The notes under the pieces were generated by a model. It saw only the letters and a list, made by a program, of their open reading frames with translations, made no database searches and was not told where the DNA came from. The position numbers were made by a program, and so were the translations under genes. Of a stretch of 64,000 nucleotides of DNA, positions 45,988 through 50,702 are shown in pieces. This DNA is from Rhizobium sp. NXC14 (GTDB lineage: Bacteria > Pseudomonadota > Alphaproteobacteria > Rhizobiales > Rhizobiaceae): positions 3,165,001-3,229,000 of the forward strand of contig NZ_CP021030.1 of NCBI RefSeq assembly GCF_002117485.1. Reading direction: 5' to 3'. Every line of letters starts with the position of its first letter. Within the stretch, counting starts at the first letter, position 1.

Positions 45988-48177
45988 TCAGGCCGCCTTC
46001 GTCTTCACCTTGCGCGCCAGATGCGCCACGACATTCTCGATCATCCGCATGCCGGCATCGCCGCCGAGCGTCATGATCGATTCGGGATGGAACTGCACCG
46101 CAGCGATCGGCTCCTTGGCATGTTCGATGCCCATGATCGTGCCGTCCTCGCTTTCCGCCGTGATGATGAACTCCCGCGGCAGCGTCGAGGGATCGGCAAA
46201 GATCGAGTGGTAGCGGCCGACCGTCACTTCCCTCGAAAGGCCGGAGAAGACGATGCCGGGTTCCAGCACGCGGATGCGCGAAGGCTTGCCGTGCATCGGC
46301 AGCGCCAGATGGCGCAATTCCCCGCCATAGGCTTCGGCGAGCGCCTGCAGGCCAAGGCAGACGCCGAAGATCGGCAGGCTGCGCGCCCGTGCCTTCTTGA
46401 TCGTCGCCTTGCAATCGAAATCCTTGGGATTGCCGGGACCTGGCGACAGCACGACTAGATCCGGGTTCAACCGGTCGAAGATTTCTTCCGGCACCGGCGT
46501 GCGCACGGTTGAAACCGTTGCCCCGGTTTGGCGGAAATAATTGGCCAGCGTGTGGACGAAGCTGTCCTCATGATCGATGAGCAGGATGTTGACTCCCTTG
46601 CCGACGCTGGCAACGTCGCGCTGGATCTTGCCGGAATTGCCGGTCTTGGCGTCTCGGATGGCGGAAAGCATGGCAGAGGCCTTCAATTCGGTTTCGGCTT
46701 CTTCTTCCTCAGGAATGGAATCGTTGAGCAGCGTCGCCCCGGCGCGCACTTCGGCGATGCCGTCCTTGATGCGCACGGTGCGCAGCGTCAGGCCGGTATT
46801 CATGTCGCCATTGAAGCCGACCATGCCGATCGCTCCACCATACCATGCACGCGGGCTCTTTTCATGGCTCTCGATGAAGCGCATCGCCCAGAGCTTCGGC
46901 GCACCGGTGACGGTCACGGCCCAGGCGTGGCTGAGGAACCCGTCAAAGGCGTCCATGTCGTCGCGCAGCCGCCCCTCGATGTGGTCGACCGTATGGATGA
47001 GGCGCGAATACATCTCGATCTGCCGGCGGCCGATCACCTTGACCGAGCCAGGCTCGCAGACGCGGCTCTTGTCGTTGCGGTCGACATCCGAGCACATCGT
47101 AAGTTCGGATTCGTCCTTTTTGGAGTTCAGGAGCTTCAGGATCTGTTCGCTGTCGGCGATCGGATCGTCGCCGCGCTTGATCGTGCCCGAGATCGGGCAG
47201 GTCTCGATGCGCCGGCCGGAGACGCGCACGAACATCTCGGGCGAGGCGCCGACCAGATATTCCTGATTGCCGAGATTGATAAAGAAGGAATAGGGCGATG
47301 GATTAATTGCCTTCAGCCGCTTGGAAATGTCGGAAGGCTTGCTGTCGCAGCGCTCCATGAATTTCTGCCCGGGCACGACTTCAAACAGATCGCCCTTGCG
47401 GAAGCTCTCCTTCGCCTTGACGACGAGTTCGGCATACTCGCCCGGTCGATGGTCGCTCTTCGGCGGAATGGCATCCGTCTGCTTGAAGGGTTCCGGCGCG
47501 ATCTGCTCAGCCTTGCCCTCGGTCGTCACGCCGCCTTTCTCGAAATCGTAGCGGTCGATCCAGGCTTTCGCGGCATAGTTATCGACGACCAGGATCTCGT
47601 CCGGCAGGTAGAGCACCATGTCGCGCTGATCAGAGGGCCGCGTCAGCTTCAATTCGATCGCGTCGAACTGGAAGGCGATGTCGTAGCCGAAGGCGCCGTA
47701 GAGGCCGAGGCTCGCATCCGCCTGCGAATAGAAAAGGTCGGTCACGGCGCGCAGCACCGTGAAAACCGTCGGCATCTTCGAACGCTCTTCCTCGGTAAAC
47801 ACCCGATCCGGCGCCTTGACGGAAAGGTCGAGACGGCGGCCGGAGGAGGCGCCGATCACAAGCTCGGGCACCGTCTTCAGCCGCTCGGTCACAAAGCCGA
47901 GAAGCACCTCCCCGCGCTCATTATAGGCCTCGATCCAGACGTCGCGGCCGAAGGAGGAGATGCCGAGCGGCGGATCGACGACGGCGGTATCCCAGCGCGT
48001 ATAACGGCCCGGATATTCGTAGTTCGACGAGAAGACCGCGCCGCGGCGCTCGTCGAGCTTGTCGACATAGGAAGAGACCGCGTCGGCATAGGGGATCGCC
48101 CGCCGCTGCCGGGTGACGGTGATGCCGCCCTTGGTCTCGTAGATTTCCGCACCATCATCCCGCAGGATCGTTACCAT
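45988..48177 (-). CDS. trpE(G): Fused anthranilate synthase, TrpE(G)
   Basis: The single 729-residue protein joins the chorismate-using TrpE part (residues 1 to about 520) with the glutamine amidotransferase TrpG part (about 530-725), as in other Rhizobiales. TrpE motifs include [20 protein letters not shown] and the [11 protein letters not shown] region; the amidotransferase has [14 protein letters not shown] with the catalytic Cys and [11 protein letters not shown] with the catalytic His. The fusion puts both subunit activities on one chain. It is controlled by the upstream trpL attenuator. Confidence 0.97.
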
Positions 48178-48221
48178 AGTTCCACTCCGTTATCGGGGCC
48201 CGGACGACAGGCGGCGATAAA

Positions 48222-48253
48222 ACAAAAAAGCCGCCTCGAAGTTTCGGGCGGCT
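48222..48253 (-). terminator. trp attenuator terminator hairpin
   Basis: On the trp strand an 8-bp stem (48246-48253 with 48229-48236) is followed by six U residues (48224-48229). It lies 41 bp after the trpL stop and 45 bp before trpE(G), in the place of an attenuator terminator. A segment near the trpL stop (GAGGCGGCC) can pair with parts of the stem as a competing antiterminator; I did not compute folding energies. Confidence 0.9.
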
Positions 48254-48293
48254 CACTCGTCGTCGTCTTTGGACACGATTGGTCGAGGCCGCC

Positions 48294-48338
48294 TCAGCGA
48301 GCCCACCACCAAACAGCAATGTTCAAAGACTTGATCAT
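48294..48338 (-). CDS. trpL: trp leader peptide with three Trp codons
   Basis: A 14-codon ORF, MIKSLNIAVWWWAR, with three consecutive Trp codons near its end, lies upstream of trpE(G). The promoter spacing suggests transcription begins at the A of the AUG, giving a leaderless mRNA, as reported for Sinorhizobium meliloti trpL. There the released attenuator RNA (rnTrpL) and the 14-residue peptide also act in trans; whether that holds here is inference. Confidence 0.9.
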   Translation of the reverse strand: MIKSLNIAVWWWAR

Positions 48339-48345
48339 GCGAAAA

Positions 48346-48374
48346 TTGTTAGCCTGAGATCAGCCGCCACGCAA
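48346..48374 (-). promoter_or_regulatory. trp promoter
   Basis: On the minus strand a -35 TTGCGT (48369-48374), a 17-bp spacer and a -10 TAACAA (48346-48351) end 7 bases before the trpL AUG. This spacing puts +1 at or next to the AUG. The neighbouring terminator of the haem-receptor gene ends 18 bp further upstream. Confidence 0.75.
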
Positions 48375-48443: not shown

Positions 48444-50702
48444 TCAGAAAGTCTTGGTGAGCGAGACCTTGAATGTGCGACCCGGCTCGGAATACCACTC
48501 CCGCGGCTGCGACGCCGTCGCCGAGCTGAGATTGACGTCGCGCACGGCGAGCGCGTTGTAGTGCTCCTGGTCGAAGATATTGTAGACACCAGCTTGGACG
48601 CGCAGGCCCGGCAACTGTTCCGGCGTCCACCAGCCGGTCAAGTCGACGATTGCGTAACCGGGCGCATCAAAGGTCGTGTCGTTGGTGTTCGTGACCGGTG
48701 TATTGAGATGGTCCGTGAGCATGCCGGCCGCAAGCGTCGAGGAAAGGTCGAAGCCGAAGGTCGCATTGCTCCAGCCGCCGCCGATGATCGCCTTGAACGG
48801 CGCCACCGAGCGCAGGCGCTGGGTGGTCTCTTCGTTCCTGCCATAGGCATAGGCCAGCGAAGCATGCAGATTGATGCCGTTATTGAAGGTCTTGACGGTG
48901 CTGGCTTCAATACCCGAGATCGTCGCCGCAGCCACGTTCGTGTAATTGAACTCAGTAAAGCCTGTCGCGTCGACGCTCGTCACCGTCTCGATGAAGTTCT
49001 GATAACGGGTATGGAAAGCCGCGACCCTGCCGGTAAAATCGCCCGTGTCGAAATTGGCGCCGACTTCGATGCCGCGGCCGATTTCCGGTTCCAGATCAGG
49101 ATTGCCGAGCTGGGCGTAGCGGCCGGTGGGGTTATAGAAGCGGCTGTAGAGTTCGTCGATGGTTGGCGCGCGGAAGCCGACCGCCAGCTGCATATAGAGC
49201 TCTACATCAGGCGTCAGGTCGAATGTGGCAAGGATCTTCGGCGACATGGCGGCTTCCGTTCGGTCGCGAAGATCGCCGAAACGGGTAAGGCCAGTATTGT
49301 TGGCAAAACCGCCGCCGGTCGAGGGATCGTAGTTGAACCAGTCAAAGCGGAAGCCGGGCGTCAGCGTGAAACCGGTGTTGCCGATCTCGATCTTGTCTTC
49401 GACAACAAGCCCAAGGTTCTGACTGTCCACATTCGGCACTTCCGCCTGGTTGTTCAGCGCCGGGCACGTCGTCAATGTCGGGCACAGAGCCCAGCTGTAC
49501 TGGCTCCAGCTGGAGACGCCGACGTCAAGGCCGACGCGAAGGGAGTGGCTGAGACCGGAATATTCGAAATCCTTCGTCGCGGTGCCGCTGAAGCCCCAGG
49601 TTTCGTTTTCGACCTCGTTGTTGCGGCCATAGGCAACATTGGCGGTCGTACGGCCCCCGCTGCCGGCCTCCTTCTTCAAATCCTGCCAATAAAGCGTGGC
49701 GCGCGCACTGCTGAAGACCGCGTCGGAAGACTGCGCTTCATAATCGTAGTCGAGCGATACGCGATCGCGGTCACGCTGTTCGCGGCCGTCATAATTTTCG
49801 ATCATGAAGTTGCGAGGGCTGGTTCCTCCTTGAAGATGGTGCAGGTCGGTTTCCAGGTCGCGGCGGAAGCGTTCCGCCGTCAAGCCGATGCGATGACCGC
49901 CTTCCAGCTCCTGGCGCAGTTTGAAGAGCAGGTTGTGTTGGTCGAAATCAGCCGGGTTCGCCTCGGTGCGGAGAGCACCGTAAACGTCATTGTTGCCCAT
50001 GTTCGCCCGCTCATGGCCTTTGCGGTAACCGCCCTGGAACAGGATCGAGGTGCCGCCGATCTTCTTGGCGGCGGCGGCCGAGCCGGAGAGGCTGCGGTCT
50101 TCGCTGTCATAGGTCGATTTCAGGATCGCGCCCCAATCGCGGCCTTCGGGGATCAGATCCTCCGGCTCCAGCGTATTGAGGACGATGGCGCCGCCGAGCA
50201 TGCCCGAACCGCCCTTGCTCGAATCCGCGCCGCGCACGATATCGAGCGAGGACAGCGAATCGAAATCGAACATATCGCCGCCGCCATTGGCGTTGGCAGG
50301 AGCAAAAGCACCCTGGCGCGAGCTATTTGAGATGTAAGGGAGCGGAATGCCGTCGATCGTCGTCAAGATGCGAGCACCGGAAAGACCGCGCAGGTTGAAG
50401 CCCGCATCGGCACGCGAATAGTTCACGCCTGCATCGACGCTGCGGCCGATGTCGTCGTAATTAGTGACCTGCTTCTCTTCCAGCTGCTTCTGAGTGATCT
50501 CGGTCGCGAGCGGCGTATCGGCAACACTGCCCGGCGCCACGCGCTTGCCCTTGACGACGATCTTCTGCAACACGGTGCTGTCCTCCGACGCGGCTTCCGG
50601 CGTGCTGGCCGGAACGCTTTGTGCGAAAGACTGCGAAACAGGAAGAATAACTGCGGCTGCCGTGCAGACCGATAGAACCGAGCGCCAATACCGGATGATC
50701 AT
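48444..50702 (-). CDS. TonB-dependent haem/haemoglobin-type outer-membrane receptor
   Basis: The 752-residue protein has a signal peptide (about 1-28, ending SQSFAQSV), a TonB box region (STVLQKIVVKGKRV), a plug domain (YSRADAGFNLRGLSGARILT, IDGIPLPYIS), and a beta-barrel ending SLTKTF with the terminal Phe. The FRAP (near residue 510) and NPDL (near 537) landmarks of haem receptors are present, but no His lies between them as it does in HemR/HmuR. Haem is the likely ligand by family; related rhizobial receptors are HmuR and ShmR. Confidence 0.9.
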   Translation of the reverse strand: MIIRYWRSVLSVCTAAAVILPVSQSFAQSVPASTPEAASEDSTVLQKIVVKGKRVAPGSVADTPLATEITQKQLEEKQVTNYDDIGRSVDAGVNYSRADAGFNLRGLSGARILTTIDGIPLPYISNSSRQGAFAPANANGGGDMFDFDSLSSLDIVRGADSSKGGSGMLGGAIVLNTLEPEDLIPEGRDWGAILKSTYDSEDRSLSGSAAAAKKIGGTSILFQGGYRKGHERANMGNNDVYGALRTEANPADFDQHNLLFKLRQELEGGHRIGLTAERFRRDLETDLHHLQGGTSPRNFMIENYDGREQRDRDRVSLDYDYEAQSSDAVFSSARATLYWQDLKKEAGSGGRTTANVAYGRNNEVENETWGFSGTATKDFEYSGLSHSLRVGLDVGVSSWSQYSWALCPTLTTCPALNNQAEVPNVDSQNLGLVVEDKIEIGNTGFTLTPGFRFDWFNYDPSTGGGFANNTGLTRFGDLRDRTEAAMSPKILATFDLTPDVELYMQLAVGFRAPTIDELYSRFYNPTGRYAQLGNPDLEPEIGRGIEVGANFDTGDFTGRVAAFHTRYQNFIETVTSVDATGFTEFNYTNVAAATISGIEASTVKTFNNGINLHASLAYAYGRNEETTQRLRSVAPFKAIIGGGWSNATFGFDLSSTLAAGMLTDHLNTPVTNTNDTTFDAPGYAIVDLTGWWTPEQLPGLRVQAGVYNIFDQEHYNALAVRDVNLSSATASQPREWYSEPGRTFKVSLTKTF

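Follow-up and report, generated by a model that had tools for sequence, protein, structure and literature searches.

The trp leader region of Rhizobium sp. NXC14 lies on the minus strand, within positions 48222-48374 of the window (the whole stretch of 64,000 nt analysed here), ahead of trpE(G). It very likely acts as a ribosome-mediated trpE(G) attenuator with a leaderless trpL, the start site, the ribosome stalling and the response to Trp being proposed from the S. meliloti precedent. Comparison of sequences supports the attenuator reading by the position of the element, its anatomy, its Rfam match and its conservation across the family members sampled. The switch has already been studied in detail in S. 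meliloti and the one presented here is a well-conserved further member, from the R. etli group. Its features are as follows:

48346-48374, minus strand: trpL promoter (sequence; kept in close relatives)
48369-48374, minus strand: -35 box of the trpL promoter, TTGCGT (sequence)
48346-48351, minus strand: -10 box of the trpL promoter, TAACAA (sequence)
48294-48338, minus strand: trpL leader ORF, 14 codons plus stop TGA (sequence; relatives)
48303-48311, minus strand: three tandem Trp codons (10-12), putative stalling site (sequence; Trp12 kept)
48284-48293, minus strand: attenuator segment 2 (GGCGGCCUCG), immediately 3' of the stop codon (sequence and fold)
48247-48259, minus strand: attenuator segment 3 (CGAG UGA GCCGCC), common to antiterminator and terminator (sequence and fold)
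48224-48253, minus strand: intrinsic terminator, AGCCGCC / GGCGGCU plus U6 (fold of -16.7 kcal/mol; kept motifs)
48224-48322, minus strand: match to Rfam RF02552, RcsR1 (109.1 bits, gathering score 60, E 3.4e-22)
45988-48177, minus strand: trpE(G), fused anthranilate synthase of 729 aa (TIGR01815, 1310.5 bits, cut-off 739)

An earlier, sequence-only reading of this DNA had proposed a promoter ending 7 bases before an AUG, and it is indeed present: the two boxes are separated by a spacer of 17 nt and the -10 ends 7 nt before the trpL ATG at 48338. Both this promoter and the terminator were missed by a simple sigma-70/terminator scan, the rules of which accept only a -10 whose sixth base is T and a terminator loop of 8 or less. 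The predicted 14-codon ORF with three consecutive Trp codons was also found; it encodes the peptide MIKSLNIAVWWWAR (codons 48338-48297, stop TGA 48296-48294), with Trp at codons 10-12 (48311-48303). Likewise, the gene expected after the hairpin is trpE(G), as confirmed by TIGR01815, with a start at 48177, and 46 nt separate the U6 tract from its ATG. The trpE(G) of the window shares 97-98% identity with its counterparts in R. sophoriradicis, R. phaseoli and R. lentis, which assigns the source of the window, a Rhizobium, to the etli/phaseoli group.

The upstream neighbour of trpL on the same (minus) strand is a TonB-dependent heme/hemoglobin receptor-like gene (48444-50702), above cut-off for TIGR01786 and TIGR01785, which stops some 70 nt short of the trpL promoter. 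Between the two lies a strong terminator-like hairpin (~48421-48392, -23.2 kcal/mol); since it follows the receptor-like gene, trpLE(G) is probably a transcription unit of its own. A 609-codon open frame on the plus strand (46528-48357), antisense to trpE(G) and overlapping the leader, probably results from base composition and from the codon use of trpE(G).

The U-tailed hairpin, which had been announced 41 bp after the ORF, has its 5' arm starting about 40 nt past the trpL stop; its arms are 48253-48247 and 48235-48229, followed by the U6 tract at 48229-48224. When the segments were folded in isolation, we obtained -18.0 kcal/mol for 1:2, -21.5 kcal/mol for 2:3 and -16.7 kcal/mol for 3:4. 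The antiterminator alternative (2:3) shares an arm with the terminator, GGCGGC-CUCG pairing with CGAG-UGA-GCCGCC. The full fold prefers the terminator, which also still forms in the minimum-energy fold of leader nt 44-111, the RNA that is free below a stalled ribosome. Because 3:4 is thus favoured in the fold of the freed RNA, antitermination would require 2:3 pairing ahead of the synthesis of segment 4; such co-transcriptional folding is assumed by analogy with other attenuators.

In the proposed mechanism, RNA polymerase would begin with the A of the trpL start codon and a ribosome would load directly at the 5' end of the leaderless mRNA. When Trp-tRNA is scarce, the ribosome would stall at codons 10-12, segments 2 and 3 would pair and transcription would read through into trpE(G). 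With abundant Trp, the ribosome would reach the stop codon and, since segment 2 abuts this codon, would cover segment 2, so that segments 3 and 4 would pair and transcription would terminate after about 115 nt (48338 to a predicted end at 48224). The terminated product would be a small RNA of the RcsR1/rnTrpL type that doubles as a very short mRNA for the peptide of 14 residues.

Conservation of this arrangement was evaluated in two sets of loci. The named set contains the best 80 of 381 relatives, 64 titled Rhizobium and 16 'Rhizobiales bacterium'; each of the 80 has a tandem-Trp leader ORF that starts 157-163 nt before trpE(G), and WWW is found in 79 of them and WWWAR in 72. For the second set, some trpE(G) match was present in 393 of 394 genomes of the family, the weak ones possibly being paralogues, and the sample consisted of 90 loci (30 returned and 60 hand-picked), all in the better part of the matches, with at least 75% identity. 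Eight of them are of the same genus (the window itself and seven exact repeats of named loci) and 82 are of other genera. We observed a Trp-rich leader in 82/82 of the latter, 81 by rule and one, L142, by eye. L142 has WWP instead of WWW and, being without WWW/WWR, is left out of the rule-based counts; the repeat of the window (L114) is left out of the 169-row set, while the 170-row counts, those of Shine-Dalgarno matches and stem classes, still include it. These 169 rows amount to 158 distinct sequences, since the seven same-genus rows duplicate named loci and a few named loci do not differ from one another.

In all 169 rows, a short ORF whose tandem Trp starts at residue 10 or 11 is followed by hairpin arms, a U-rich tail and trpE(G), and Trp is found at residue 12 in 164 of them. 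Of the 81 other-genus leaders, 74 contain WWW, 7 WWR and 49 WWWAR; 62 encode a peptide of 14 residues, 13 one of 15 and 6 one of 16-19. Where several ATGs were possible, the start chosen was the most upstream one that puts the first Trp at residue 9-12, and this choice favours the count of 14-15 codons (75/81). Five leaders (L131, L150, L166, L170 and L174) have 18-19 codons, read past the usual place of the stop near segment 2 and end with RP (ARP, KRP, QRP or RRP), like the published 19-aa peptide of Agrobacterium, which also ends with RP (PMC7298713).

The RNA elements are kept as well. A loose segment-2 pattern lies within 4 nt of the trpL stop in 163 of the 169 rows, and hairpin-arm motifs with a U-rich tail are present in 169/169 by the looser arm-plus-tail test. 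Two classes of terminator stem were distinguished, GCCGCC/GGCGGC (136/170) and GGCCGC/GCGGCC (20/170), in which both arms change together, 14/170 rows falling outside both strict patterns. A third stem form, GCCGCTG with CGGCGG, was seen at L178 and L197, two genomes of one genus. An automatic stem search gave a terminator stem in 169 of 170 loci and, in 48 of these 169, fewer than 6 pairs for 2:3; because the stem finder picked wrong stems at some loci, we relied on the stem-motif classes and on the arm-plus-tail test.

RcsR1 is the single Rfam match in the window at gathering thresholds, and no second RF02552 match was obtained in this genome at E <= 0.001. As the match starts 16 nt into trpL, the 5' end of the leader is not covered by the model. 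It is also a narrow model, above cut-off in 9 of 397 genomes of the order (25 at E <= 0.001). None of the eight listed genomes of one genus (g2) matches it, and two of these eight, G248 and G069, nevertheless have a clear trpL leader (L181 and L191). According to a review, RcsR1 occupies the same position as the attenuator RNA rnTrpL of S. meliloti. Its salt and cold profiles are reported to be similar in several Rhizobiaceae (PMC5977203). The distance from the AUG to the U tract, about 115 nt here, compares with 116 nt between the published coordinates of SmelC587/RcsR1.

The element shares with the S. meliloti trpLE(G) attenuator, its RNA rnTrpL and its peptide peTrpL the place before trpE(G), the terminator, a 14-codon trpL, Trp at residues 10-12 and the C-terminal WWWAR (PMC7298713). 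The likeness noticed in the sequence-only reading, a peptide different in its first half and with WWWAR kept, is borne out by the published peptide: 8/14 residues are identical, and residues 2-5, 8 and 9 differ. The trpL peptides of Agrobacterium tumefaciens (19 aa) and Bradyrhizobium japonicum (15 aa), compared at the peptide level, differ in length and at both the N and the C terminus and share the consecutive Trp in the C-terminal half; a resistance role is reported for both (PMC7298713). E. coli trpL is likewise a case of ribosome-mediated attenuation with tandem Trp codons. High Trp additionally brings about repression of the E. coli trp genes, a transcriptional control that the operon of S. 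meliloti does not have (PMC7298713).

In S. meliloti, the RNA rnTrpL was reported to target the trpDC mRNA and the peptide to target the smeR mRNA (PMC7298713 and others); a review describes the trpDC effect as conserved in Agrobacterium and Bradyrhizobium. W12, important in the S. meliloti peptide, is present in that of Rhizobium sp. NXC14. The trpD of this genome was identified by model, in a cluster at L234:2052-4389. Its neighbours are presumably ppiD, trpC, moaC and moeA, and the order of the frames fits ppiD-trpD-trpC-moaC-moeA; the cluster appears arranged like ppiD-trpDC-moaC-moeA of S. meliloti.

Pairing between the leader and trpD was at background in this genome by three crude duplex methods. 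The unrestricted duplex energy was -91.8, against a background of -77.7 to -100.7 (median -87.4, n=56), and thus gave no discrimination. With accessibility taken into account, the trpD start scored +0.3 for a background median of 0.0 (n=70, including the leader's own locus at -20.3; next best -5.8), and -2.7 was the best score among 13 windows of the trpD cluster. When accessibility was left out, none of these 13 windows had a lower hybrid energy than the trpD start (-30.5). A second hybrid scan, with a 300-nt stretch positioned by an ATG that lies about 30 codons inside trpD and still covering the trpD start, gave -32.8, near the background median of -31.2 (n=73). Five other genomes gave leader-trpD energies of -29.1 to -37.0, without backgrounds of their own; one of the five is an S. 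meliloti-type pair, in which leader and trpD come from two genomes of one genus. Trans action in this Rhizobium, by the RNA or by the peptide, is neither supported nor excluded.

The trpL of E. coli has a 5' leader with a Shine-Dalgarno sequence. For the element described here, one can imagine the attenuator proposed above with a short 5' leader and a conventional or weak Shine-Dalgarno for trpL, and two observations are in line with it: the distance from the -10 to the AUG varies between 6 and 8 nt, so that some starts are possibly 1-2 nt off the A, and 3-nt Shine-Dalgarno-like matches are found before 70/170 leaders. We nevertheless consider this alternative quite improbable. Indeed, a promoter model trained on 68 distinct upstream regions of close relatives, and scanned from 150 nt before trpL to 40 nt past its start, placed its best site 6-8 nt ahead of the AUG in 70/81 other-genus loci and elsewhere in 11; the control, with one shuffle of each, gave 5/81 counted over 6-9 nt, and training and tested upstream regions share at most 35/45 bases. 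A C is present at -1 in 72/81 of these loci. Moreover, trpE(G) has its own Shine-Dalgarno, a match of at least 4 nt being found before trpE(G) in 81/81 loci (the window and the 80 named ones), versus 4/170 leaders. In S. meliloti, the RNA was reported to start at the trpL AUG (PMC7298713), and translation of the leaderless trpL was seen by Ribo-seq (PMC10117765). From promoter distance, C at -1 and the missing Shine-Dalgarno, we would put the transcription start at the AUG or within a base or two of it; the 5' end of the trpL mRNA in the window is probably the A of the ATG (48338). The start at the AUG that had been suggested earlier is thus supported by the fixed promoter-AUG distance and by the missing Shine-Dalgarno, and the comparative set suggests that a leaderless trpL is general in the family.

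Could the unit instead be kept mainly as a trans-acting stress sRNA, attenuation being secondary? Rfam files RF02552 as an sRNA, and RcsR1 was reported to regulate sinI and other targets in S. meliloti (PMC5977203). What is conserved, however, even in genomes without the Rfam match, is the Trp codons, the terminator and the place before trpE(G), and the leader-trpD pairing is at background here; this explanation is in our opinion very improbable. As for a chance run of Trp codons next to a hairpin, with no regulatory role, the pattern TGGTGGTGG by itself is not rare in this genome (69 sites in 6.69 Mb, versus 59 for the reversed pattern). The Rfam match above cut-off speaks against such a coincidence, and conservation in 169/169 rows led us to reject chance, the probability of which we hold to be negligible. 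The ribosome-mediated attenuator with a leaderless trpL is therefore the reading that we retain, with the strength given above.

Published work on the trp attenuator or rnTrpL was found for S. meliloti, Agrobacterium and Bradyrhizobium; in the portions of the literature that our search returned, no study of this trp leader locus in the R. etli group was found. RcsR1 may have been observed in Rhizobium before, since its stress profiles have been reviewed in several Rhizobiaceae (PMC5977203).

A more speculative idea, which we regard as rather doubtful, is that the attenuator is throughout the family a leaderless mRNA of roughly fixed length and that Trp12 has been kept by selection on a free peptide and an sRNA besides attenuation; the trans functions known in S. 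meliloti would then be ancestral and would exist in Rhizobium too. The comparative set (80 named loci, 81 other-genus loci, 70 of them promoter-locked) reaches past the Rfam RcsR1 model, and the leaderless claim can now be tested directly, in several species at once. A well-studied dual-function attenuator is now placed in the R. etli/leguminosarum group.
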